From: an uncultured Fibrobacter sp.
GTDB lineage: Bacteria; Fibrobacterota; Fibrobacteria; Fibrobacterales; Fibrobacteraceae
NCBI RefSeq assembly: GCF_947305105.1
Contig: NZ_CAMZCS010000020.1
Coordinates: forward strand, 1 to 57,837
Direction of reading: 5' to 3'
DNA: 57,837 bases
Below the pieces are notes generated by a model. The model did no database searches and had not been told where the DNA came from. It saw nothing but the letters and a program-made list of their open reading frames with translations. Shown here piece by piece: positions 16,048-27,131 of this stretch. Made by a program: the position numbers and the translations under genes. The number at the start of each line of letters is the position of its first letter. Within the stretch, counting starts at the first letter, position 1.

Positions 16048-16647
16048 CTAAAAATTTGGGTAGCCGTCCTTGAGGGACTCGTCGTAATGGGCGCGTTCGC
16101 CGCCGATGAATTTCGGGCGCGTGCGCGCTGCAATCAGGATTGCCTTGCCGATATGCGTTAGCTGCATGTGAACAGGTACCGCGACTTCTTTCAGGTGCAT
16201 GCCGATGAGTGTACCGCCGATATCTAATCCGGCGTCTGCCTTGATATGTTCAATGGCGACAGGTTGTTCAAAAGCGCTATAGCAGGCGGTGGCGAACGAG
16301 CCGCCGGCCTTGGGTTGCGGTACCACGTTCACGATTTCGGCGTTCGGTACGGCCTTGTGCTCGACGATGATGGCTCGGTTCAAGTGCTCGCAGCACTGCG
16401 CCGCGATGTAGATGCCGAGCGGCTTGAAAACGGACTGCAAACCTTCGAAAATGGCCTTGCCGACTTCGGGCACGGAGTGGCTGCCGATGTCGTTTCCGAG
16501 CGTGGAACTCGTGCTGCAACCGATGACTACGATATTGCCCGCCGTAAGGCGCGCCTTTTCCACAAGTTCCTTAGCGGCGTTCATCGCGTCGTTACGAATC
16601 TGTTCGACAACGTTCTTGTCGTCTATTTCGTATGTAATGCCTGCCAA
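16048..16647 (-). CDS. YwlG/TIGR01440-family protein (UPF0340)
   Basis: A 199-residue protein. Signatures are VVIGCSTSSTLGNDIGSHSV, GIYIAAQCCEHLNRAIIVE, VNVVPQPKAGGSFATACYSAF and DAGLDIGGTLIGMHLK, which I recognise as the TIGR01440/YwlG family of unknown function. The chosen start is the TTG at 16647, since the conserved N-terminus begins MAGITYEIDD; there is no nearby ATG. The bases just upstream are the tandem repeat at 16652-16692, so the leader is repeat-derived. It lies on the far side of the transposon from guaA and was probably its direct downstream neighbour before the insertion. Confidence 0.85.
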   Translation of the reverse strand: MAGITYEIDDKNVVEQIRNDAMNAAKELVEKARLTAGNIVVIGCSTSSTLGNDIGSHSVPEVGKAIFEGLQSVFKPLGIYIAAQCCEHLNRAIIVEHKAVPNAEIVNVVPQPKAGGSFATACYSAFEQPVAIEHIKADAGLDIGGTLIGMHLKEVAVPVHMQLTHIGKAILIAARTRPKFIGGERAHYDESLKDGYPNF

Positions 16648-16651
16648 CTTT

Positions 16652-16703
16652 CTACTGCCTACCGTCTACTGTCTACTGTCTACTGTCTACTGCGGCGAAG
16701 CCG
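16652..16703. repeat. Tandem 'CTACTGT' repeat and half of a split hairpin
   Basis: Five to six copies of a seven-base word (CTACTGT, with variants) run from about 16652 to 16692. GCGGCGAAGCCG follows. Before the transposon inserted, this joined the base after AGCCG at 25295 to give GCGGC-GAA-GCCGC, a perfect hairpin immediately beyond guaA. Confidence 0.75.
16699..16703. repeat. Target-site duplication AGCCG, left copy
   Basis: AGCCG directly precedes the TGT end of the element and is repeated exactly at 25290-25294. Five bases is the length made by Tn7-family transposases. Confidence 0.9.
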
Positions 16704-17019
16704 TGTACCTTTGTAACCTTCGTTCCAACATGTGTAATCGTTCGTTCCAACCAGGTTTGCACCCTTCGTTTGCAACTTTGTTTTCAACGTCATCCCGAAC
16801 CATCGTTGCCAGCTCGTTGCAAAAAGAAGGCCCCTTTGGTTCTAACAATCGCTTCAAACCCTGTTGTAATCTGGGCTAGAGCCTGGTTGCAAACCTTGTT
16901 TCAAACCCTGTTTCAAACCCGTTGCAAACAAAAAAAACACCGAGATTGACTCTCGGTGTTCGCAAACTTGGTTTGGAACCGTGGTTCACACAAAGTGGAA
17001 CGGGCGGTGCAAAGTTACA
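16704..17019. repeat. 316-bp terminal direct repeat, left copy
   Basis: Identical base for base, by eye, to 24974-25289 (offset 8270). It starts TGTACCTTTGTAAC and ends GTTACA. Read inward from its other end it gives TGTAACTTTGCACC, so each copy alone has imperfect inverted TGT/ACA termini. Inside is an array of 11-12-base units of the type GTTTCAAACCCT (for example starting at 16886, 16898, 16910 and 16921) and an intrinsic terminator. The units are plausible TnsB-binding sites. Confidence 0.92.
16928..16960 (-). terminator. Intrinsic terminator in left repeat copy
   Basis: Ten-pair stem AACACCGAGA/TCTCGGTGTT (16936-16945 with 16951-16960). On the minus strand it is followed by eight T. It stops minus-strand transcription of the transposon genes before it reaches the YwlG-family gene. 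Confidence 0.85.
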
Positions 17020-17197
17020 TAGAGAGTTTTCTTTCGAAGCTCAATATACCTTTTTGACGAAACTTAAGCAAGTAGAAAACTCACAAAAATATTGGTTTAT
17101 GATGTAAAATTGAGAAAACCCTTCCCAACAGGGACATCCACATGGATATTGCCGCTGGGGTAGATTTTGGTTGATTCAACGCTTTAGAACGACTGCC

Positions 17198-17803
17198 TTA
17201 TCCACACGTGGACCGTCCTTGATGATTCGTACGGCAGTGTTTTTTTTTGCGATGGGATTTTTTTTGTTGGTCTTCAAACCGTTTTCTGGTCTCGTCCTCA
17301 ATCAACTGCATCATCTCTGGGAATAGTTTTTCTGCATATATTTCGGCGATGTGTTCGAGTTTGATTACTTCTTCTTTAGCAGCATCATCCATCTCCAAAT
17401 TCCAATAATTCTCTGCGTAGCAGCAATATTCATAAGTCCATGAATGAACGATTCCATCACGGATTGCATCTTCAAGGGTGGATTCATTTACGTCTTTAAC
17501 ACCTTCAATCATATCCTTGACTGTTTCAACAAAAATTCGTGGGTTATCGCATTGTTCGAGCGTTGGGTAGCCTGCACAATTTAGGATTGCATTTCTTTTG
17601 GTTCCCGTTGCTGAAATTGGTCCGAATTGTGCTTCGCATAGTACGTCGCTTATGAGTCCATCGCAAGCATCTTCGTCGGATAGTATTTTGATGATTTTTT
17701 TCTTCACGTCATTGACAACGGCTATTTTCTGGAGGTCGATATCGTGGCTAAATTCTTCTGAATAGGTTTCGGCGATGTGTTCTATTTTTTCTTGGTTTTT
17801 CAT
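17198..17803 (-). CDS. Transposon-borne hypothetical protein with a probable C-terminal frameshift
   Basis: A 201-residue acidic protein with a basic tail. No family recognised. A repeated IEHIAE(T/I)Y phrase occurs near residues 8-15 and again near 148-155, suggesting two related helical segments. The last 16 residues (KKKHCRTNHQ...) look unnatural. In another frame, after the A8 run (17262-17269) and through the A9 run (about 17239-17247), the DNA reads NTAVRIIKDGPRVDKAVVLK and stops at 17176. So the original protein probably ended there, 22 bp further on. An AAGGA ribosome site precedes the ATG. Cargo of the Tn7-like element. Confidence 0.55.
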   Translation of the reverse strand: MKNQEKIEHIAETYSEEFSHDIDLQKIAVVNDVKKKIIKILSDEDACDGLISDVLCEAQFGPISATGTKRNAILNCAGYPTLEQCDNPRIFVETVKDMIEGVKDVNESTLEDAIRDGIVHSWTYEYCCYAENYWNLEMDDAAKEEVIKLEHIAEIYAEKLFPEMMQLIEDETRKRFEDQQKKSHRKKKHCRTNHQGRSTCG

Positions 17804-17836
17804 AGTTTTTTCCTTTTGTTTTTTGGTTCACTAGGT

Positions 17837-18196
17837 TTATTCTGGTTGGTGAATAGACCCAACCTTTTTAATTTTCGTTGGCCTTGAGAGTTTGGCGTCT
17901 AATTCGATAGGCTTATAGACATCCGTTCGATATCCTTGATATCCTTTTAAGTAGGTGTTCACTCTGGCTTCGAATTGTAAGATGTCACCCTGTTTAAGAT
18001 TGGCCTGGCAAAATCCTTTTGTTAGATTAAACCATAGATGGTCTGTAATTTTATCGCCATCGGTATCACGTATGTCGGTTAACAACACTGTTGTTTCCGT
18101 TCGCCCTTTCCAGCCACGTTTCATGCCGAAACGTTCAAAGACACCTTTAAAAGTGAGGCGTTCTTCAGAGCCAATGTTCATTAGTTCAGTTCTCAT
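17837..18196 (-). CDS. OB-fold-like small protein on the transposon
   Basis: A 119-residue protein. TTVLLTDIRDTDGDKITDHLWFN, LTKGF, LKQGDILQFEARVNTYLKGY and YRTDVYKPIEL give a strand pattern like an OB-fold nucleic-acid-binding module. Similar proteins occur, as I recall, in conjugative elements and phages of Firmicutes. An AAGGA ribosome site lies eight bases before the ATG. It is 33 bp upstream of the 201-residue protein gene, so the two are co-transcribed. A single-strand-binding role beside a primase-like protein would make sense but is inference. Confidence 0.6.
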   Translation of the reverse strand: MRTELMNIGSEERLTFKGVFERFGMKRGWKGRTETTVLLTDIRDTDGDKITDHLWFNLTKGFCQANLKQGDILQFEARVNTYLKGYQGYRTDVYKPIELDAKLSRPTKIKKVGSIHQPE

Positions 18197-18303
18197 ATTT
18201 TATATCCTTTTTTGTGTGTTTGGGTAAGAGTCCCCTATAGGGCTATCTTGTGGACAGTCCTTGGTTGAGCCCTTGTGGGGCGCTTTTTGATTGATGTACA
18301 GTC

Positions 18304-18450
18304 CTAGGTCACAAAGACCTCGTGTGGAATAAGGCCATCATAGGCCATTCCTTCCATACGGGAGAAGATGTTGCGGAAGCGTTTTTCAAGATTGTTCTTT
18401 GCGGTTTCTCCTTTAGTTGATAACAGTTTTCTGGTCAAGTTCCTGAGCAT
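18304..18450 (-). CDS. Possible 48-residue peptide overlapping the preceding gene
   Basis: An open frame from the ATG at 18450 to the TAG at 18304, overlapping the end of the 160-residue gene by 38 bp. It reads NNLEKRFRNIFSRMEGMAY and then DGLIPHEVFVT, which looks like genuine protein (amphipathic helix, coherent codons), but I see no ribosome site at the start. It could be a small gene or the remains of a longer C-terminus of the upstream protein in a shifted frame. Confidence 0.3.
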   Translation of the reverse strand: MLRNLTRKLLSTKGETAKNNLEKRFRNIFSRMEGMAYDGLIPHEVFVT

Positions 18451-18895
18451 ATTTGATGGCTTCATATTCACTGAGAGATACACCCCATGTTACAAGTATT
18501 TCCTCCATAGGTATACGGAGCCATGACTGTAAAGAGTCTACGAGCGCACGGTGTTTCCATGCGTCATGTATGTCACACCATGTATTGTCTTTCTGCATGT
18601 AACGGTATGCATGGCGGAAGAAACCGCACGTTTCGCATTCTGGACGCTTCCATTCCTTGATTGTCTCGAATGCTCCGTAAAGAATTGATTCAAGGGAATC
18701 GCCTTTGTCAATTAAATCAGGGTCATTCTCGGAAAGTGCTTCGATGTTTACATGTTCACGCCAGTACTTGTCATGTTCAGCATCATAGAAGAGGACGCCA
18801 AGAACCCTGATTTCCTTTACCGCCGAGAAAAAGTTATCCATCGTTAGACTTCTTGCTGCTTCCTCTATTTCTTTTTCTGTAATTTTTCTTTTCAT
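18413..18895 (-). CDS. Transposon-borne hypothetical protein with CxxC/CxxH motifs
   Basis: A 160-residue, mainly helical, acidic protein of no recognised family. CETCGFFRHAYRY and WCDIHDAWKHR place two Cys pairs and His residues close together (about residues 93-117), which may bind a metal. It starts at an ATG with AAGGAG seven bases upstream. The promoter region about 100 bp upstream contains the 13-bp palindrome shared with the ribbon-helix-helix gene, so it is probably controlled by that regulator. Confidence 0.6.
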   Translation of the reverse strand: MKRKITEKEIEEAARSLTMDNFFSAVKEIRVLGVLFYDAEHDKYWREHVNIEALSENDPDLIDKGDSLESILYGAFETIKEWKRPECETCGFFRHAYRYMQKDNTWCDIHDAWKHRALVDSLQSWLRIPMEEILVTWGVSLSEYEAIKYAQELDQKTVIN

Positions 18896-18966
18896 GGTTT
18901 GCTCCTTTTTAATTTAAGTCTCACGGTTCTCATGTTCAGATTCCCATTTTTCGTACTTTTTTTGAT

Positions 18967-19009
18967 TGGTTATTCTATAATTGTTGTTGACATGCATTGT
19001 CAATGACAA
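18967..19009 (-). promoter_or_regulatory. Promoter with overlapping 13-bp operator palindrome
   Basis: On the minus strand TTGACA (-35) is followed 18 bases later by TATAGA (-10). The -35 lies inside the palindrome TTGTCATTGACAA (18997-19009). The same 13 bases occur at 19543-19555 in front of the regulator gene. It probably drives the 160-residue protein and the genes after it. Confidence 0.55.
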
Positions 19010-19086
19010 ATTTTTGCCTGAATAAAGACGACTTGGGCTGGCCTTGTCGTCTATTTCAATCGACTATAGGTTTTAACAATTAAATG

Positions 19087-19503
19087 CTAACATAACTCAA
19101 TATTGAACCCCTGAGATTTGATTTCATTCACGGTTTCGAGAACGAGTCCATACTCTTCACGAGCATTACCTACGAAACCTTTTTTTATGCCGATATCTAA
19201 GGCGATGCTGGTATTTTTCGTTTTACCTAGTCCATGGATAATAAAATCGTATTTATGGTGGTCTTTCCGTTCGTTCATTCCCAGACGCCGAACAAATAGT
19301 TGATGCTTGTCAACAATATCCTTGATTGTGCTGTATTGAGAGGTTAGAACATCGTCCACGTCCATTTGGGAGAATTGCTCTTGAATCCACTCAGACAAGC
19401 CCCTGGTCATCTGGATGTATTCTAGCTGTGGACGTAGTTCAGGCGGCAAACTGAAGGAACAGGTGATAGCAATGCGTCTTCTTGGTTTAGTAGTCTTTCC
19501 CAT
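19087..19503 (-). CDS. Ribbon-helix-helix-type regulator on the transposon
   Basis: A 138-residue protein. The N-terminus, with a basic stretch (KTTKPRRRIAITCSF) and then SLPPELRPQLEYI and GLSEWIQEQF, has the strand-helix-helix pattern of a CopG/Arc-like DNA-binding domain (about residues 5-45). The C-terminal two thirds (VRRLGMNERKDHHKYDF...) are unrecognised. The start at 19503 is preferred to an in-frame ATG at 19539 because GAGG lies nine bases upstream and the -10 region overlaps the longer form. A 13-bp palindrome at 19543-19555 upstream suggests autoregulation. Confidence 0.55.
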   Translation of the reverse strand: MGKTTKPRRRIAITCSFSLPPELRPQLEYIQMTRGLSEWIQEQFSQMDVDDVLTSQYSTIKDIVDKHQLFVRRLGMNERKDHHKYDFIIHGLGKTKNTSIALDIGIKKGFVGNAREEYGLVLETVNEIKSQGFNIELC

Positions 19504-19542
19504 TGTATGTAACCTCAAGCGATAACTATAATATAACAAATT

Positions 19543-19555
19543 TTGTCAATGACAA
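19543..19555. promoter_or_regulatory. Operator palindrome upstream of the RHH regulator
   Basis: TTGTCAATGACAA, symmetric around one base, is identical to 18997-19009. It sits 40 bp before the regulator's start codon in an AT-rich promoter-like region (TATATTATAG on the minus strand). Confidence 0.5.
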
Positions 19556-19595
19556 CAAGTGGTTTTGACAAAAAAGTTGTTTTTTTTTCAAAATG

Positions 19596-19620
19596 CCCCC
19601 AAATGACATCCATGAGGGGG
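19596..19620. repeat. GC-rich inverted repeat downstream of the primase-like gene
   Basis: CCCCC...GGGGG arms around a 15-base loop that contains CATCCATGA. A related hairpin containing CTTCCATGA flanks the other side of the primase-like gene (21632-21664). The T9 run lies on the other side, at 19580-19588. Confidence 0.4.
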
Positions 19621-19741
19621 TTATTACCCAAAGCGAGTGGTTTTTCGTACGTATGGCGGAAATACAGTAGTTAAAACCTGTTTTGGGTCTCTGGAGGGGT
19701 CGTTTTCCCTCCATGTCGCCTTAGCTAGTGTGTGTAGCTTC

Positions 19742-21595
19742 TTACGCCTTGCTAGGCGCCTTTTGCGGGGGTTTCATCAGCAAAGGGACCTTACACATGT
19801 TTCGCCTTGTTCTGGGCCTATGGGCTTGTTTTTGGGCGATTCCGGCCTTCCTCCATAAACCGTTGAAAACGGCTTTTGAAATTCTCCATTTTGCATTTGC
19901 AGCCTTGAAACATTCTTCTTTGGTAGAAGAATCGGAACTGCATAGCTGCTCAAATTCGCTGATGTTTATATCCCAATTCGGGACGATTCGTTTGTCCATT
20001 CTCATCAGTGAGGTAGATAGCGCCTTGGTCATTTCTTCCGTTGTGGCGACAAAGAGCCAATGATAAACTTTTTGGGCTATCCAGGTAAAGTCCATTGGGT
20101 TTCGCTCATCAGCTCCAGAAAGCTCCGTTGTCCTTTGGACAATCCAGTTGACTTGCCTGATGATTCCGTCATAGGATAGCGTAGAATCTGTGTCTAAATC
20201 AATGTCGAAATAGGTTGCCAATGCACGGGCGTTGTAGCACAGAGCTATGATTTGAAGGTCAACTCTCTTGTGCCTTGCCCCAACCTTGATTGGTCTTTGC
20301 AAGTTTTGATTCAGGTAAATGTTGCCCCAGTGGGCTATTGGGTAACTTGCTTCCCGAGGCAAATTCCTTTTATCTACGATTTCCATAAGAATCCTTGATG
20401 AGGACATCAGAATAAAAGGGGCGTCAGAATACTTTTCCCGTTTACTAAACCATGTTTTGAAGTCAGCTGTATCTTGCTGCTGTTTAATATGTGTGAGGGG
20501 GGAGGGAGGAGGGAGTTCGGCATCCACAGGGGGATTATAGGGAGGATTTACTTGCGGGTTCGCTTTGGGGTTGTCGTAGTTTTCTTCTAGGGAAATTTCT
20601 GCTATATCTTGCTGCTGTTTAATATGTGTGAGGGGGGGCTTGGGGAAGGAGAGGAGAGGCTCGACGGTTACGCATTCAGCTAATCCCTTGAAAATGGAGG
20701 GGAAATCGTTCAATGTGTACACAAGGCCGATTTCTCTTTCTGCCTGGTATGCGAGGTGAAAGCGTTCGGGGTATTTGTCTAGAAGGGCTGAGTTAAGGAC
20801 CGAAAACGTTTTCTGCGTCACGTAGGCGGCCTGGGGGTCCCAGGCGGTTTCAAGGGCGTATTTATCATCGTATGTTAGGGGGAGACCCTCCTCCAGTTTC
20901 TTTCTTGCTTCTTTGGCTGTGTTTATAACCTCGTGGCCAAATATGTAGCCTGTCTCTTCGGTGACTTTTTGTCTCAAGGTTTCGTTGTCGTAGTTGAAAG
21001 GGGCTGTTTTTAGGAATACATGGAACTTAGTCTTGCCGTTGATGTCTTCCGCCACAAATCGCCCGATGTTGTCGCCAAATTCTTCGATATACTCCTCTTC
21101 ATAATAAAAAACAGTTTCATTAGAGGATGATTCAATGACGAAACATGTATTCGCATTGTCATAATCGCATTTCTTGAGTTCAGCGCCCGTTTGAATGCCC
21201 AAATCATCGAAATCTACAAGAATAAAGTTTGATGGGTGGTAGTTTTCACCAGTTTCTTCATTCCTATACCACCATCTGTTCCTCATCCAGGTCAGACCGT
21301 AATCAGAAAGAAGTAACATAAGCTCAAAGAATCGATAAACGTTCCCCTTGAAGTGGACCTTGTAAATCTTTGAAGAACCGTTCTTCTTTAACTTAGGAGT
21401 ATGCGAAATGAATCTGTTCACGTACTTGTGGAACTTGCCATCCTTGTCAGTGTAGCCCTTCTGGAACTTTGTGAACTTTTTTGTGGGGCAAGCATTGAAA
21501 ACGATGAGTTCTTCCTCGAAAACGGGGATAGGTGGAGGAGGTGGGGGGCAGTAGTTGAGGTCAAGGTGCTGGGTCATGTTTTGGTTCATATTCAT
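19742..21595 (-). CDS. Large transposon protein with primase-polymerase-like motifs (unknown function)
   Basis: A 617-residue protein just after tnsC, where tnsD/tniQ normally sits. The N-terminal half has FILVDFDDLG (about residue 130) and KTKFHVFLKTAPF (about 200), then DPQAAYV (about 270). Together these resemble the DxD, sxH and third acidic motifs of archaeo-eukaryotic primase-like replication proteins. A Pro/Asn-rich linker (about 330-385) is bounded by two copies of LTHIKQQQD encoded by a 32-bp direct repeat. The C-terminal half is helical and unrecognised. I start it at the ATG at 21595, eight bases after GGAAGGA. No TniQ zinc-finger features. The primase reading is inference and needs a profile search. 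Confidence 0.6.
   Translation of the reverse strand: MNMNQNMTQHLDLNYCPPPPPPIPVFEEELIVFNACPTKKFTKFQKGYTDKDGKFHKYVNRFISHTPKLKKNGSSKIYKVHFKGNVYRFFELMLLLSDYGLTWMRNRWWYRNEETGENYHPSNFILVDFDDLGIQTGAELKKCDYDNANTCFVIESSSNETVFYYEEEYIEEFGDNIGRFVAEDINGKTKFHVFLKTAPFNYDNETLRQKVTEETGYIFGHEVINTAKEARKKLEEGLPLTYDDKYALETAWDPQAAYVTQKTFSVLNSALLDKYPERFHLAYQAEREIGLVYTLNDFPSIFKGLAECVTVEPLLSFPKPPLTHIKQQQDIAEISLEENYDNPKANPQVNPPYNPPVDAELPPPSPLTHIKQQQDTADFKTWFSKREKYSDAPFILMSSSRILMEIVDKRNLPREASYPIAHWGNIYLNQNLQRPIKVGARHKRVDLQIIALCYNARALATYFDIDLDTDSTLSYDGIIRQVNWIVQRTTELSGADERNPMDFTWIAQKVYHWLFVATTEEMTKALSTSLMRMDKRIVPNWDINISEFEQLCSSDSSTKEECFKAANAKWRISKAVFNGLWRKAGIAQKQAHRPRTRRNMCKVPLLMKPPQKAPSKA
20471..20637. repeat. 32-bp direct repeat inside the primase-like gene
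   Basis: 20471-20502 and 20606-20637 are identical over 32 bases (starting ATCTTGCTGCTG). They encode the two LTHIKQQQD phrases that bracket the Pro-rich linker. Recombination between them would delete 135 bp in frame. Confidence 0.85.
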
Positions 21596-21631
21596 AGTAA
21601 ACATCCTTCCGAAAAGCATTCGGAGTTATAT

Positions 21632-21675
21632 CCCCCCATGGGAGTTCCCGACTTCCATGAGGGGTCTTGTTTTTC
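21632..21675 (+). terminator. GC-rich hairpin upstream of the primase-like gene, terminator-like on the plus strand
   Basis: CCCCCATGG pairs with CCATGAGGGG (one mismatch) around a short loop, followed by TCTTGTTTTT. No plus-strand gene precedes it, so its job may be other than termination, for example as a leader structure for the minus-strand gene starting at 21595. Confidence 0.4.
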
Positions 21676-21819
21676 CCAATAAAAGTACGCTTTTTGAAGG
21701 CTACTCTAACATTTTTTTTTTAGAAGCCCTGTTTTGATGCAAAAAAGTTGCCGTAAAGGCTCTTAAACCCCTGTTTTCGACCTCCAAAAGAAGAAAAAGG
21801 GAAGGTCTGGCCTATCCTT

Positions 21820-22626
21820 TCATTTCGACGGGAACGGCTGCGATTGCTTGCGAATTGCAGAGTCTGTCAAGGGAGGCGCCTGGGTAAAGAAGTCTAGGCA
21901 TTCGTTTGTTCCTACGAGCAGAACAGATATGCAGCTTGTATTTATCAGTTGTAAAATCATCTGATAAAGCAATTTTCCTGACTTGCTTTCCACAATAAAT
22001 TGTATTTCATCTATGATAAGAGTCCCCACATACAAATGGCAAATTTGGCAAACCATCCCAAGTATTTGCTGCGAGTTCATCTTGCTTTTTTCGCTACGTT
22101 CGTAGTAGTGTGTTTCCAGGATTTCGTCGATGCTAATGAGAATTTGGCATAGTAGGCCTTTATAGCTACAGTCGAATGGGCAAGATACCATCAGGACGGG
22201 GATTATCCTGTGAATGTTGTCGTCACTTTCGATGACTGGTCCAAGTAATTTGGTGGCGTATTGAATGGCCGAAGTTTTCCCAATTCCGCTGGAGCCAATG
22301 ACCGTGCTGCTTGTGGCGCCTGTAATAACTCCCTGAAATTCACCACCGTGCGCCCACTTGTACGTGGCGTTTCTTTGCTTGATGGAATCGATGGACCCTT
22401 TTTGCTGGAGCGACATTGAGACCATCATATAGAGTTTCTGATAGATTTCAAAGGTCATTGAAGAGGGTATAAAGACCTTATAGATGTCTGTAAGCTTTAG
22501 CAGGCGTTCGCTTGCGGACATGCTTTTTATTGCAGCTCGGTCATAATGGGGGAGCCTGGTAAGGGCTAGACTTAAATCATCCCCAAGCAAAAGCTTTGGT
22601 AGCTTTGAGCTAATGTTAGTTGTCAT
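21820..22626 (-). CDS. tnsC: TnsC/TniB-like AAA+ ATPase
   Basis: A 268-residue transposition regulator that links target choice to the transposase. Walker A GSSGIGKTSA is at about residue 115, Walker B TLIIDEIQ at about 205, and the sensor-like VLLVGTNE at about 236. Its start overlaps the tnsB end by 11 bp. The C-terminus stops soon after the sensor region (LTDSAIRKQSQPFPSK), shorter than Tn7 TnsC and nearer TniB size. I cannot tell natural shortness from truncation. The family is clear; the gene symbol is by analogy. Confidence 0.82.
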   Translation of the reverse strand: MTTNISSKLPKLLLGDDLSLALTRLPHYDRAAIKSMSASERLLKLTDIYKVFIPSSMTFEIYQKLYMMVSMSLQQKGSIDSIKQRNATYKWAHGGEFQGVITGATSSTVIGSSGIGKTSAIQYATKLLGPVIESDDNIHRIIPVLMVSCPFDCSYKGLLCQILISIDEILETHYYERSEKSKMNSQQILGMVCQICHLYVGTLIIDEIQFIVESKSGKLLYQMILQLINTSCISVLLVGTNECLDFFTQAPPLTDSAIRKQSQPFPSK

Positions 22627-24439
22627 TCTTTGCCTCCGTGATGATGTCTTTATGGGTTTCGTATTTCTCGATTCGTCGGTTTTCCCCGATGGCTTTGAGA
22701 CATTTTTTAGGCTTTATGGCGCCCTGTTCGACGATTGTCTGGATGTGGGAGATTAGGTTGATTCGGCCTTGCATGGATTCTTCGTAAAAATGTTTGACAT
22801 GCTCCTTTTGTGCTGTTTTTGCTTGGTTCACGCTGTCTAGCTTGGCCCCGTCAAATTGTGTGTCGATAAGTTCAAACCGTCTGAAATTCTCATCGACTAG
22901 GTACACATAGGTGACATTATCGGGATTAAAAGCGACATTGACTTTGTTACCCTTGAGGAAACGTTCTACAAATCCATCTGAACCGTAACGGAGGCCGTTC
23001 ACAATTAAACCTTTTCGGGTGAAATGCCCCGTAGTTCTAGGCAACAGGAGCGCTGTGATGGTCTCGGGTGATGCAAAGATGAGATTCCCTAATCCATGTT
23101 TCTTTTGAAATCCCCAAATGCTGGCAGAGTACGGAGGCGTTTTCTCATCAAGCATTTGGGCTGTATAGGGGAAATTTTTGAGGACTCTTTTGGTGTTATG
23201 GAAAATGATTGCATGGATGATGATGGTCTCAAAATCATGCAATGAGATACAGGCGTCTTTCCTGTAATCGTGACCACCACGTTTTTGAAAATCTGATTCG
23301 ATGACGCCTTTTCCCTTCAAATAGGGCTTATAGGCATTCTGAATCAAGTCAAAGAATTTTTCGACACGCCCCTTGAGTTCTGGACGAAATGGTGGAAGGT
23401 TTATGATTGTTACCCCCAGTTCTGCCAGCTGTTCAAAATTAAAGCTTGCATATTCTGAGCCCCTATCTGTTACCATGATGGAGGGCAATTCCTTGCAGGG
23501 CCAGTCTTCGTCCTTTATCTCGATTCCGAAAGCTTTACAGAGTTCAGTCTTGTCTGCGATGATATTCAAAATCAATTCCCGAACACTGTACATTCCTCCC
23601 TCCCAACCAAGATAATAGCCGCAACAAAGCCCGCTGTAGCCGTCAATGCAGGCTGTGAGAATCGGCCTTCCTATGACAATCCCTTGGCTATTGCATAAGT
23701 AAATGTCGCATATAGTGGAATCCAGCATTCCCGTTCCGATACACGGAGCAAATTCCTGAACGCCACTTCCAAGCAAAGGTCTATGGTTCATTTGATAGTC
23801 TTTTAGACCGCCTCTGCTGATGAGCTCCGTTTGGATTTTTCGGTTTCTATAAAAGAAGTAGCGAAATTGGTGAATCGAAGGCCTGTCGGCCTTTATTTGA
23901 CCGTCGGGTTCACAGTATCGTTCCTTAATTAGGGAATAATACGTATCAGTTAGACTTTTACCATGTCTGGTGTAGAAAAACTTGTTTAATGCCCAGCGGA
24001 AGTTCTTTTGGTCTGGGGTAAGTTCTTTTTGTTGTGCCTTTTTTGGGGCTAGGATTGCCTTGTTCTGGAATGCGAGGTATCTGTAGAGCCATTTCTTGAC
24101 TCCACGGATACTGTAACCGTTAAGTTTGGCTATCTGTCGAAGCATGGAACAGCGTTCCTGAGAGTCGCCTATTATTGGGATTATTCCGCTTATGAGTGTA
24201 TATCTTTTGTTTGTTTCTGCCAGTTCCTTTTCATTTAAGTCTGTTCTTAGCTCAATTTTTGCTCTGGCTTGGAGTTCGTCTTCAGTTATTTGTTTGGCGC
24301 CTTCGAATTGCTCTTTTAGAATGAACATGGGATTGCATTGACGAATACAGTTGATAACCAATAGACCGTTGTTATCATCGTTTTCTAGGATACGGTAAAT
24401 TGTGCCGTTTTTATCCCATAGAGAATTTGTGCTATACAT
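22616..24439 (-). CDS. tnsB: TnsB/TniA-like DDE transposase
   Basis: A 607-residue Mu/Tn7-type transposase that cuts and joins element ends. The N-terminal part is helical DNA-binding sequence (about 60-190). The rve catalytic core shows Asp in GMLDSTICD (about 238), Asp in TDRGSEYASF (about 321) and Glu in KGRVEKFFD (about 356). A Mu-transposase C-terminal barrel follows (GLRYGSDGFVERF, FNPDNVTYVYLVD). The start has a perfect AGGAG eight bases upstream and overlaps the tnsA stop by eight bases. All catalytic residues are present, so the transposase is probably active. Confidence 0.92.
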   Translation of the reverse strand: MYSTNSLWDKNGTIYRILENDDNNGLLVINCIRQCNPMFILKEQFEGAKQITEDELQARAKIELRTDLNEKELAETNKRYTLISGIIPIIGDSQERCSMLRQIAKLNGYSIRGVKKWLYRYLAFQNKAILAPKKAQQKELTPDQKNFRWALNKFFYTRHGKSLTDTYYSLIKERYCEPDGQIKADRPSIHQFRYFFYRNRKIQTELISRGGLKDYQMNHRPLLGSGVQEFAPCIGTGMLDSTICDIYLCNSQGIVIGRPILTACIDGYSGLCCGYYLGWEGGMYSVRELILNIIADKTELCKAFGIEIKDEDWPCKELPSIMVTDRGSEYASFNFEQLAELGVTIINLPPFRPELKGRVEKFFDLIQNAYKPYLKGKGVIESDFQKRGGHDYRKDACISLHDFETIIIHAIIFHNTKRVLKNFPYTAQMLDEKTPPYSASIWGFQKKHGLGNLIFASPETITALLLPRTTGHFTRKGLIVNGLRYGSDGFVERFLKGNKVNVAFNPDNVTYVYLVDENFRRFELIDTQFDGAKLDSVNQAKTAQKEHVKHFYEESMQGRINLISHIQTIVEQGAIKPKKCLKAIGENRRIEKYETHKDIITEAKNDN

Positions 24440-24788
24440 TAGGTTTCTCCTGGTTGGTTACGATGCCCCAGTTGGAGATACCCCTTTTATTCCAAAATTC
24501 CCTAGATGCATCGAGCAAGGCAATGGTCATTGGTTTAGCCAGGAATTTTCTCTCGACACATTCCCTGACAAGGAATGAACCATCTTTGCATTTGCATAAG
24601 AAATCGCTGGTGTAGGCGCCTACACTAAGTCCATCAAGGGGGACGTTGCACTGGATGGTTTCTATTGAGTCCGTCTTTTGCAAGATGTCCAGGTAGACTG
24701 ATTGGAGCTTGCTATATAGGCGGCACACAGAAGCTGCCTTAGTCACACTCCGTTTCTCACATTTACATTTGGGGTCTTTGCGCATCAT
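24432..24788 (-). CDS. tnsA: TnsA-like endonuclease (N-terminal domain only)
   Basis: A 118-residue protein. SKLQSVYLDILQKTDSIETI, YTSDFLCKCKDG, FLVRECVERK and REFWNKRGISNWGIVTNQE follow the layout of the TnsA nuclease core. The catalytic Asp is in SDFL, but the first Glu position is Gln (SKLQ) and the usual EVK is ECV. The RECVxRK form recurs, as I recall, in TnsA-like proteins of Firmicutes elements. The start at 24788 is supported by AAGGAA nine bases upstream. A longer frame reaching 25127 would run into the terminal repeat and is rejected. The TnsA C-terminal domain that contacts TnsC is absent. Confidence 0.78.
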   Translation of the reverse strand: MMRKDPKCKCEKRSVTKAASVCRLYSKLQSVYLDILQKTDSIETIQCNVPLDGLSVGAYTSDFLCKCKDGSFLVRECVERKFLAKPMTIALLDASREFWNKRGISNWGIVTNQEKPNV

Positions 24789-24812
24789 AGAGAGATTTTC
24801 CTTGTTTCCCAG

Positions 24813-24951
24813 TTTCCCGAAAAAGGCATGGTTTTTCCCGATTTCGGGAAAATTTTGCGGAATTCGGGCCGAAATTCGGGAAACCGATAAGTGGTCTTTG
24901 CAGAAAACCCTTGAAATTTGCTCAAAAAAGCCATTCCCGAAATCCCGAAAA
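24813..24951. promoter_or_regulatory. Cluster of TTCCCGAAA iterons upstream of tnsA
   Basis: About seven copies of TTCCCGAAA or its complement lie in 139 bp: 24813, 24834, 24844, 24861 (partial), 24874, 24933 and 24942. Two form a perfect 8-bp-arm inverted repeat at 24834-24851 (TTTCCCGA-TT-TCGGGAAA). They lie between the tnsA ribosome site and the right-hand repeat copy. They look like protein-binding sites that control the tns operon or act as replication iterons. Confidence 0.7.
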
Positions 24952-24973
24952 TGGGGTGAGCTGATTTCCTCTA

Positions 24974-25289
24974 TGTACCTTTGTAACCTTCGTTCCAACA
25001 TGTGTAATCGTTCGTTCCAACCAGGTTTGCACCCTTCGTTTGCAACTTTGTTTTCAACGTCATCCCGAACCATCGTTGCCAGCTCGTTGCAAAAAGAAGG
25101 CCCCTTTGGTTCTAACAATCGCTTCAAACCCTGTTGTAATCTGGGCTAGAGCCTGGTTGCAAACCTTGTTTCAAACCCTGTTTCAAACCCGTTGCAAACA
25201 AAAAAAACACCGAGATTGACTCTCGGTGTTCGCAAACTTGGTTTGGAACCGTGGTTCACACAAAGTGGAACGGGCGGTGCAAAGTTACA
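24974..25289. repeat. 316-bp terminal direct repeat, right copy
   Basis: Exact copy of 16704-17019. Its ACA end is separated from the guaA stop codon by the 5-bp duplication plus one base. The bases just inside the two copies are complementary (TAGAG after the left copy, CTCTA before the right copy), extending the inverted symmetry at the inner junctions to TACATAGAG. Confidence 0.92.
25198..25230 (-). terminator. Intrinsic terminator in right repeat copy, now serving guaA
   Basis: Same stem as the left copy (25206-25215 with 25221-25230) followed on the minus strand by eight T. Being 66 bp past the guaA stop, it is the first terminator guaA transcripts meet. Confidence 0.85.
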
Positions 25290-25294
25290 AGCCG
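25290..25294. repeat. Target-site duplication AGCCG, right copy
   Basis: Exact match to 16699-16703, directly after the ACA end of the element. Confidence 0.9.
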
Positions 25295-25295
25295 C

Positions 25296-27131
25296 TTATT
25301 CCCACTCGATGGTTCCGGGCGGCTTGTGCGTCACGTCGTACCACAGGCTGCCAGCACCTTCGGCTTCGAACTTGCGCCAGAGACCGGCGAGCAATCCCTG
25401 ATCGATTTCGGCGAAGTTTGCGGTCATGGCTTCGGTGGAGTTCACCGGGCGCATCACGATGCAGGGCTTGTTTGCTGTGCGGAGCGGGACGAGCACGACC
25501 GGCATCTGCCAAATTTTTTCGTACAGGTCGTTGGCCTGCAGGAATTCGGTGCAGATGTTGTCGAACTTGCGGAGCGTATCGAAGTTTTCGCGGGTGGCGA
25601 ACTGTTCCACGAGTTTCGGATCTTCGTCGGCGACGCTGCCAATCTGGTAAATCACGCGGTTGATGGCCTTGAAGCGGTTGGCGAGTTCTGTCGAGAACTT
25701 TTCGCAATCCTTCCAGGAGAGGCCCGGAGTGGTAATGAGGAACGGCTGTGCGTAAGTACGGCCATCGCCCTGCACGCCCACGCTCTTGATGGGGAGCAGG
25801 CGGCCTGCAATGTTGTTCGCCTTCAGGTAGTCGGCGAGGGACTGACCGGCGGTATCCTTCACGTCTTCAAACTTCACCATGTCGCTGGCGAGCACGCCAT
25901 CGCTGCAGAGCAGGCGTACGCCGAGGCCCGGACCCGGGAACGGGTGGCGCCACACGAGGTTGTGCGGGATGCCGAGTTCTTCGCCCAATGCGCGGACTTC
26001 GTCCTTGTACAGGTCGGCGAGCGGTTCGAGCACGAGGCCCTTTTCCATGAGGTCCAAAACTTCTTGAACGCGGTTGTGGTGCGTCTTGATTTTGTCGGCG
26101 TTCTTGGTGCCGCCGCTTTCGATGGTGTCGGGGTAGATGGTGCCTTGCGCCATCATCCACTGGTTCGGATCGAGGTTGAGCTTCGCCATTTCCTCGTCCT
26201 TCACCGTCAGGAATTCCTTGCCGATGATGCCGCGCTTGGTTTCCGGCGCAGTCATGCCCTTGAGCTTCGCGAGGAAGTGCTCGCTTGCGTCACGCACCTT
26301 CAAGTTGTTCATGCCTTCCTTCGTGAGGAAATCCATAATCTTCTGGGATTCGCCGAGGCGCATCATGCCGTTGTCCACGTGCAGGCCGAGGACCTTTTCC
26401 GGTCCGAGTACGCGGTTCAGGAGCACGAATGCCACGGTAGAGTCCACGCCGCCGGAGACGAGCAGGAACACCTTGCGGTCCTTGACCTGGTCCTTGATGC
26501 GCTGCGTGATGAGCGGCAGGTAGCTCTTCATGTTCCAGGTCTTCTTCGCGCCGGTGAAGTCGATGAAGTTTTCGAGCAACTTCATGCCGAACTTGCTGTG
26601 CGTGACTTCGGGGTGGAACTGGATACCGAAAATCTGGCGTTCGGGCTTGTCACTGTCGAAGGCGACGGCCGCGATTTCGCAGTCCTTGGTGCTGGCCACA
26701 ATCTTGTAGCCCTCGGGGAGCTTCGTGACTTGGTCGCCGTGGCTCATCCACATGGGGGAGGCCTTCGGGAGGTCCTTCAAAATCGGGCACTTTTCGTCGC
26801 CCACAATCAGGTCGGCGATGCCGTATTCCTTGACCTTGCCCGGTTCCACGTGACCGCCCAGCTGCTGGGCAATGAGCTGGTGTCCGTAGCAGATGCCGAG
26901 TTTCGGCACCGGGAGGTTCAAAATTTCGGGATTGTATTCCGGGGCGTCCGCGGCGTACACGCTGGAGGGGCCGCCACTGTAAATGATTCCCTTCACGCCT
27001 TCCAGTTCGCTGACGGGAGCGGCGGGGGAGTGGATTTCGGTAAACACGCCCAGGCGGCGCACGCGGTTAGCAATCAGGTGGGCGTACTGCCCGCCAAAGT
27101 CCAAAACTGCAATCGTATCAACGTTCTTCAT
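25296..27131 (-). CDS. guaA: GMP synthase (glutamine-hydrolysing), long form
   Basis: Converts XMP to GMP with ATP and glutamine. Residues 1-205 are a class I glutamine amidotransferase (catalytic Cys in GICYGHQL, His and Glu in FHPEVTHS). The ATP-pyrophosphatase has LVSGGVDSTVAF (about 225), and the C-terminus is the hallmark KPPGTIEWE. At 611 residues it is about 90 longer than the common bacterial enzyme. The extra sequence is in the dimerisation region, between VGVQGDGRTYAQPF and EKIWQMPVVLVPLR, as in the eukaryote-like long form. Its stop codon is one base from the transposon's target duplication, making this the candidate attachment gene. Confidence 0.96.
   Translation of the reverse strand: MKNVDTIAVLDFGGQYAHLIANRVRRLGVFTEIHSPAAPVSELEGVKGIIYSGGPSSVYAADAPEYNPEILNLPVPKLGICYGHQLIAQQLGGHVEPGKVKEYGIADLIVGDEKCPILKDLPKASPMWMSHGDQVTKLPEGYKIVASTKDCEIAAVAFDSDKPERQIFGIQFHPEVTHSKFGMKLLENFIDFTGAKKTWNMKSYLPLITQRIKDQVKDRKVFLLVSGGVDSTVAFVLLNRVLGPEKVLGLHVDNGMMRLGESQKIMDFLTKEGMNNLKVRDASEHFLAKLKGMTAPETKRGIIGKEFLTVKDEEMAKLNLDPNQWMMAQGTIYPDTIESGGTKNADKIKTHHNRVQEVLDLMEKGLVLEPLADLYKDEVRALGEELGIPHNLVWRHPFPGPGLGVRLLCSDGVLASDMVKFEDVKDTAGQSLADYLKANNIAGRLLPIKSVGVQGDGRTYAQPFLITTPGLSWKDCEKFSTELANRFKAINRVIYQIGSVADEDPKLVEQFATRENFDTLRKFDNICTEFLQANDLYEKIWQMPVVLVPLRTANKPCIVMRPVNSTEAMTANFAEIDQGLLAGLWRKFEAEGAGSLWYDVTHKPPGTIEWE

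Follow-up and report, generated by a model that had tools for sequence, protein, structure and literature searches.

A Tn7-like element next to guaA in Fibrobacter, bounded by paired end blocks and probably integrated as a circle

The DNA analyzed here, referred to as the window, is a stretch of 57,837 nucleotides of contig NZ_CAMZCS010000020.1 from an uncultured Fibrobacter sp. (NCBI RefSeq assembly GCF_947305105.1), in which an insertion of 8.59 kb lies directly 3' of the guaA stop codon, with the pentamer AGCCG on both sides. An earlier note on this sequence had described the insertion as a complete Tn7-like transposon, and our analysis confirmed its coordinates, the AGCCG duplication (Table 1) and the overlapping order of tnsA, tnsB and tnsC, all on the minus strand, with tnsA and tnsB sharing ~8 bp and tnsB and tnsC ~11 bp. 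The AGCCG copies are found directly outside TGTACC... and ...GTTACA, and the TGT...ACA termini reported in the note are indeed real; the simple model of the ends, however, did not hold, as each end of the insertion is in fact a whole block of 316 bp, here called E, that starts with TGTACCTTTGTAACC and ends with GGTGCAAAGTTACA, so that both a left (L) and a right (R) transposon terminus are present in each E. The order in the window is AGCCG-E-TAGAG...genes...CTCTA-E-AGCCG, where the two E copies are identical direct repeats, no target-site duplication (TSD) is seen at the inner side of either copy, and the inner flanks TAGAG and CTCTA are an inverted pair that prolongs the termini (52-nt inverted repeat I1). 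No further E copies were found in the window genome. The clean empty site that the note had suggested looking for is present in three related genomes (G008, contig 101 of G018, and G047), where guaA is followed by TAAGCGGCTTCGCCGCAG, that is, by both window flanks joined with a single CGGCT/AGCCG. The proposal of a Tn7-like element with a true 5-bp TSD beside guaA is supported.

The layout 5-bp TSD-E-genes-E-TSD recurs in two phyla, in Fibrobacter and in Lachnospiraceae, mostly right after guaA, in a sample of 397 genomes of one Bacillota family and about 80 Fibrobacter genomes, several of the assemblies being metagenome-assembled genomes (MAGs) in which repeats were possibly collapsed. As in the window, the E copies are identical to each other in G027 (TSD GCTCC), in the Fibrobacter MAG Horse_feces21 (G021; TSD GCGGA, E of 302 bp, 25.5 kb apart) and in the Lachnospiraceae genome G176 (TSD AATTG, E of ~295 bp, 27 kb apart), where the element follows a fructose-bisphosphate aldolase gene. 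In the Fibrobacter succinogenes MAG RUG14609 (G046; TSD GGTTT, ~19 kb apart) an N run is not equally long in the two copies, and in G208, also from Lachnospiraceae, E copies of 279 bp that are 95% identical lie 25 kb apart after guaA. The inner flanks form an inverted pair in all E-pair elements, and we regard the E-pair architecture as nearly certain. The guaA gene adjoins the element in six Fibrobacter genomes and three Lachnospiraceae; tns genes lie directly 3' of guaA in G267 and G196, and in G393 and L149 they follow a gene whose product, read by eye, has a C-terminus resembling pyruvate phosphate dikinase. Each element has a TSD of its own, located beyond the guaA stop codon, and TnsB identity to the window protein goes from 64% down to about 40%. 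No E pair was seen in G030, in the part of G049 that was read (this contig ends in E-like repeats), or in L025, L026, G393, G196 and G321, most of these contigs being short. Solo E copies are found at guaA in G045, with TSD ACCAA, and in G001, with unequal flanks, and serine or tyrosine recombinases are present in G046, G021, G049, G018, G030, G208 and L137. Directly beyond the far E of G176 (L125+L126, 30531-30634) we also noted a third, decayed E (about 82%), which suggests repeated use of one site. Relatives with tnsABC-tniQ, a serine resolvase and ArdC were seen at 987-992 kb of G030:C1 (L032) and in G018:C83 (L031), with no guaA alongside and no element ends found at either place.

E copies match within elements and diverge between them, to the point that the E of G021 and that of the window are not alignable by BLAST. 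The comparison with G027, which belongs to another species, is the sharpest case: where compared, the backbone of its element is 100% identical to that of the window, its E is 93.7% identical, and the same 16 mismatches and 4 gaps are found in both of its E copies. Because these copies share identical differences while the backbone matches completely, it would be simplest to assume that one E is the template for both copies of an element. The earlier note had reasoned that the same element without a duplication in a related genome would speak against its proposal; what G027 holds, over 5.2 kb of identical backbone, is a duplication of its own at guaA, GCTCC/GGAGC.

The word "complete" in the note, on the other hand, has to be withdrawn. 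From position 21819 the window DNA is 86% identical to a part of G127 that comprises the ardC 3' end and the sequence downstream of it, and the C-terminal third of tnsC (268 of ~412 aa are left), tniQ, the recombinase, cargo and ardC are all gone in comparison with relatives. Full-length relatives read tnsA-tnsB-tnsC (~412 aa)-tniQ (~440 aa in the closest), followed by a tyrosine recombinase in three Fibrobacter genomes, and also carry restriction-modification, ArdC or other cargo. No TniQ/TnsD target selector was found in the window genome, while relatives have one, and this absence is due to the internal deletion. The same derivative is present in G027, where the compared parts of the backbone (2.7 and 2.6 kb, one gap), including the truncated end of tnsC, are 100% identical to the window, in an assembly that lacks the tnsA-tnsB part of the element. 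Since the two share the derivative and differ in their TSDs, at least two insertions of the deleted form took place, for which help in trans is the simplest explanation, and the window copy is probably non-autonomous and moves only with such help. In G127:C37 (L067) and G037:C33 (L068), the tyrosine recombinase of these elements is present with no tns genes, and in G127 this tns-less recombinase is accompanied by restriction-modification genes, ArdC and a member of a 625-aa protein family that the window element also encodes; the backbone may be an older integrative element.

Some viral contigs hint at a circular form. A profile search of IMG/VR returned 13 contigs, and in L137, L139 and L148, where no host gene was seen, a single E connects the far end with tnsA, which is the junction expected of a circle. 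To the left of E are ArdC and a serine recombinase in L137, phage-type NrdD, NrdG and dUTPase in L139, and an endolysin with a possible head-decoration protein in L148, so that two of these three contigs are phage-like. Another contig (G534, IMGVR_UViG_2936984999_000001, 122,814 bp) has genes for terminase, DNA polymerase, NrdD, endolysin and tail fibre, with tnsABC-tniQ at one end; its two ends each enter opposite ends of E by about 55 nt, with inner flanks TAGTA/TACTA, and the 91-kb G533, which has the same start, also has a terminase. The transposase and DNA-transposition-protein families of PHROG match the TnsB and TnsC of the family, and the tns module appears to serve phages and plasmid-like elements alike as an integration cassette. 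On large phage contigs and on fragments, tnsABC-tniQ was seen beside lysis, tail or nucleotide-metabolism genes, at L146/L156/L157/L161 (G534), L145/L154/L160 (G533), L138, L139, L144 and L148. Searching the viral collection with the E/inner-flank junction as a pattern gave a single phage match, which had no E and was due to chance, and no close TnsB was found in plasmid records.

The profile search that the note had suggested for the three Tns proteins agreed with its assignments, although weakly in the case of TnsA, which matches Pfam Tn7_TnsA-like_N at 5e-5 and 24.2 bits, slightly under the cut-off of 26.5. TnsB matches Mu-transpos_C (5e-6), an 8-member TnsB alignment matches Tn7 TnsB (PDB 7pik) at 3e-66, and D240, D325 and E360, the DDE residues that the note had recognized, are invariant across this alignment; TnsC matches TniB (5e-13) and AAA_22. 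When TnsA is aligned to Tn7 TnsA, the aspartate (D114 in Tn7) is retained and the lysine (K132 in Tn7) is replaced by V, A or C in 16 of 16 proteins, and the first acidic position is variable (Q, M, H or E). Viral TnsA copies carry the same motif as the other family members. An AlphaFold2 model of TnsA from 5 sequences was unusable (predicted local distance difference test score, pLDDT, 38).

Active-site mutants of TnsA are known to yield cointegrates (PMC8188705), and the arrangement found here, TSD-block-donor-block-TSD in direct repeat with no inner TSD, is that of a cointegrate. In our opinion, a circular donor probably gave rise to these elements by integrating replicatively, through a cointegrate, mostly at guaA; E would act like a long terminal repeat (LTR), and the elements seem to be a branch of the Tn7-like elements that inserts whole DNA circles, plasmid-like ones and, in relatives, phages. 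The circle would carry one E of ~300 bp, a mini-transposon with both ends, between its far end and tnsA. TniQ/TnsD would steer TnsB to a site immediately 3' of the guaA stop codon, where TnsB would cut no more than the two 3' ends of E and join them to the target, while the 5' strands would stay uncut by a TnsA without its catalytic lysine; that they are not cut is suggested by the E-genes-E products themselves, since an active TnsA should mobilize E by itself out of the circle. Replication across E would then generate the cointegrate, with TSD, E, the whole circle, E and TSD in this order, and recombination between the E copies, by the recombinase of the element or by RecA, could later release the circle and leave a solo E behind. 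The window copy would be an integrated, internally deleted form of such a circular element with TnsABC and, before the deletion, TniQ. Replicative integration of a circle accounts jointly for the outer TSDs, the matching and complete E pairs, the conserved inner junctions, the circle-type contigs, the solo E copies and the TnsA motif.

Several observations weigh against this reading. The termini of the G208 element are imperfect, in G267 no second E was found in about 90 kb of downstream sequence, and no complete circle was recovered, while a tandem array would give a middle junction identical to that of a circle. In TnsA, the arginine two residues on and D/E/C are invariant, and it is possible that the protein is a changed yet active nuclease. 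Furthermore, gene conversion, or the collapse of repeats during MAG assembly, could contribute to the identity of E copies. Gene conversion is in fact part of a different explanation, that of a composite transposon, in which two E copies resembling miniature inverted-repeat transposable elements arose once beside tns, and the resulting unit of 8-26 kb moves by cut-and-paste through its outer L and R ends. Paired miniature elements that mobilize DNA have a precedent in TIME-COMP (PMC4133298), and outer ends with a TSD, as seen here, would be expected. The inner halves of E would however have no use in such a unit and would be expected to degenerate, but Fibrobacter and Lachnospiraceae elements alike keep both copies complete, single-E junctions to tnsA exist, and TnsA has no lysine; we thus consider a composite transposon unlikely.

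Solo E copies at guaA (G045, G001) and the tyrosine or serine recombinases of several elements could also be reconciled with E being set at guaA by the Tns proteins as a landing pad, which a circle would enter afterwards through recombinase-mediated or homologous recombination with the resident E. A crossover between differing E copies would nonetheless give unlike copies, whereas the 20 changes relative to the window E are found in both G027 copies, and the window genome has no other E and the window element no recombinase, so that this route appears improbable to us. As for the possibility that the insertion is the dead relic of a degenerate Tn7-like element, with repeats produced by chance rearrangement, the truncated tnsC and the lack of tniQ and of a recombinase in the window copy would fit. 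The same deleted derivative at an independent insertion with its own TSD in a second species, however, means that it moved after the deletion, and intact relatives share the E-pair layout, which leaves this idea very little credit and largely refutes it for the family.

Table 1. Features of the guaA-proximal insertion in the window
Feature	Position	Strand	Remarks
TSD, left copy (AGCCG)	16699..16703		Occurs once in empty sites
E copy 1 (316 bp, both L and R termini), at far end	16704..17019		Identical direct repeat at 24974-25289
Terminator hairpin in E copy 1	16936..16960	-	Inverted repeat I2; about -18 kcal/mol with T-run
Inner flank TAGAG	17020..17024		Inverted partner of CTCTA; same pentamer in G046, G021, G027
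Promoter-like TTGCTT-17-TATATT pointing through E	17043..17071	-	Position and spacing kept in 8/9 far ends
201-aa protein	17198..17803	-	No assigned function; identical in G027
119-aa protein	17837..18196	-	No assigned function; identical in G027
160-aa protein	18413..18895	-	No assigned function; identical in G027
150-aa protein	19087..19539	-	No assigned function; identical in G027
625-aa protein	19742..21619	-	Relatives near far end of G127, G021, G046 elements
Deletion junction	21820..21874		tnsC homology ends 21875; ardC-downstream homology begins 21819
tnsC, truncated, 268 aa vs ~412 in Fibrobacter relatives	21820..22626	-	TniB 5e-13; alignment
tnsB, DDE transposase, 607 aa	22616..24439	-	
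tnsA, 118 aa from conserved start	24432..24788	-	Mechanical open reading frame extends to 25127; catalytic lysine position is V
Inner flank CTCTA	24969..24973		
E copy 2, guaA side, 316 bp	24974..25289		Perfect direct repeat of 16704-17019
Terminator hairpin in E copy 2	25206..25230	-	Directly downstream of guaA
TSD, right copy (AGCCG)	25290..25294		
guaA, host gene	25296..27131	-	3' end marks insertion site

The position of transcription signals adds to the picture of how the integrated and circular states might differ. A sigma70-like promoter with 17-bp spacing points into E at nine far ends, and in eight of them its -10 element ends 21-23 bp before E (chance about 1% each). E itself holds a strong terminator in the same direction, with a predicted stability of -14 to -27 kcal/mol in the eight elements with a readable E, which can also serve guaA. 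In the integrated state, guaA transcripts would reach this terminator ahead of tnsA, while in the circle the far-end promoter would face tnsA across E, and tnsABC would be driven only there. A complementarity of 8-11 bp between the leader (ACAAGGT...) and the 5' arm of the E terminator was seen in L137, L139, L148, G176 and G208; in these five elements outside Fibrobacter the support for pairing is weak (shuffle p 0.007-0.043 each), and the Fibrobacter elements gave none; an antitermination switch through leader pairing with the E terminator is, at this stage, only an idea.

With respect to cargo, the "primase-like" and "OB-like" labels used in the note are backed by no profile. The 625-aa protein has no relative in Pfam, PHROG, PADLOC or PDB, its AlphaFold2 model was unusable (pLDDT 35), and its D-F-D...K-x-H pattern does no more than suggest a primase-type replication protein. 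Around the insertion site we also observed a short repeat, TCTACTGTCTACTGTCTACTG, at 16645-16695 of the window, which is dispersed on other contigs of this genome and in many Fibrobacter genomes, and, at L088, L094, L097 and L105, repeated modules 3' of guaA ending in a GTGGGAGTAG(C) string that resembles the guaA tail; these modules look like footprints of other insertions or duplications.

On balance, we lean toward an undescribed class of integration, in which TnsABC-TniQ with a nuclease-dead TnsA would integrate circular genomes, plasmid-like elements as well as tailed phages >100 kb, at specific sites, duplicating an LTR-like non-coding block of 300 bp and completing the promoter of its operon only in the circle. 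Site-specific insertion of circles from 8 to >100 kb by a non-CRISPR system would be of interest to genome engineers. In the open-access literature we found no description of a Tn7-like element at guaA, of Tn7-like phage integration, or of the E-pair layout with an LTR-like E.

Tn7-like elements have been defined by a TnsB-type DDE transposase adjoining at least one other Tn7 core protein (PMC8649781), a definition that does not require TniQ and that covers the window element. The 5-bp TSD, the TGT...ACA ends, the insertion immediately 3' of a conserved gene's stop codon, the homologous TnsA, TnsB and TnsC, and the TnsD-like C-terminus of the TniQ of relatives are all shared with Tn7 and its kin. 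The catalytic TnsA (acidic residue, D114, K132) and the distinct L and R ends of canonical cut-and-paste Tn7, in contrast, are not found. The tns genes are not enclosed by the L-R pair of either E, E is duplicated at both ends, the TnsA lysine is lost, the site is guaA rather than glmS or other listed sites, and phages appear to use the system. Elements of the Tn5053/Tn402 and type V-K kinds, which have no TnsA and are replicative, share the predicted cointegrate pathway and a recombinase in many members, but here a TnsA homologue is conserved and the duplication is limited to about 300 bp instead of covering the entire transposon. IS26 translocatable units and TIME-COMP are alike in that a circle with one short mobile block gives a block-DNA-block direct repeat with an outer TSD, or paired miniature elements flank passenger DNA; E, however, contains no transposase gene, tns lies between the copies in the passenger DNA, and the target gene is fixed. 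Phage Mu and other transposable phages also integrate through a DDE transposase and an AAA+ protein, but Mu carries its genes between its ends and has little target preference, whereas here the circle would join via E, often beside a fixed gene, with TniQ. Islands borne by tyrosine integrases, mentioned together with guaA in many papers, use another chemistry and leave a direct repeat of the guaA 3' end, unlike the variable TSD past the stop codon seen here. Finally, as two LTRs flank a retroviral insert, two identical direct E repeats flank the element. The core genes are Tn7-like; apparently new are the layout with an LTR-like E, the guaA site and the use by phages.

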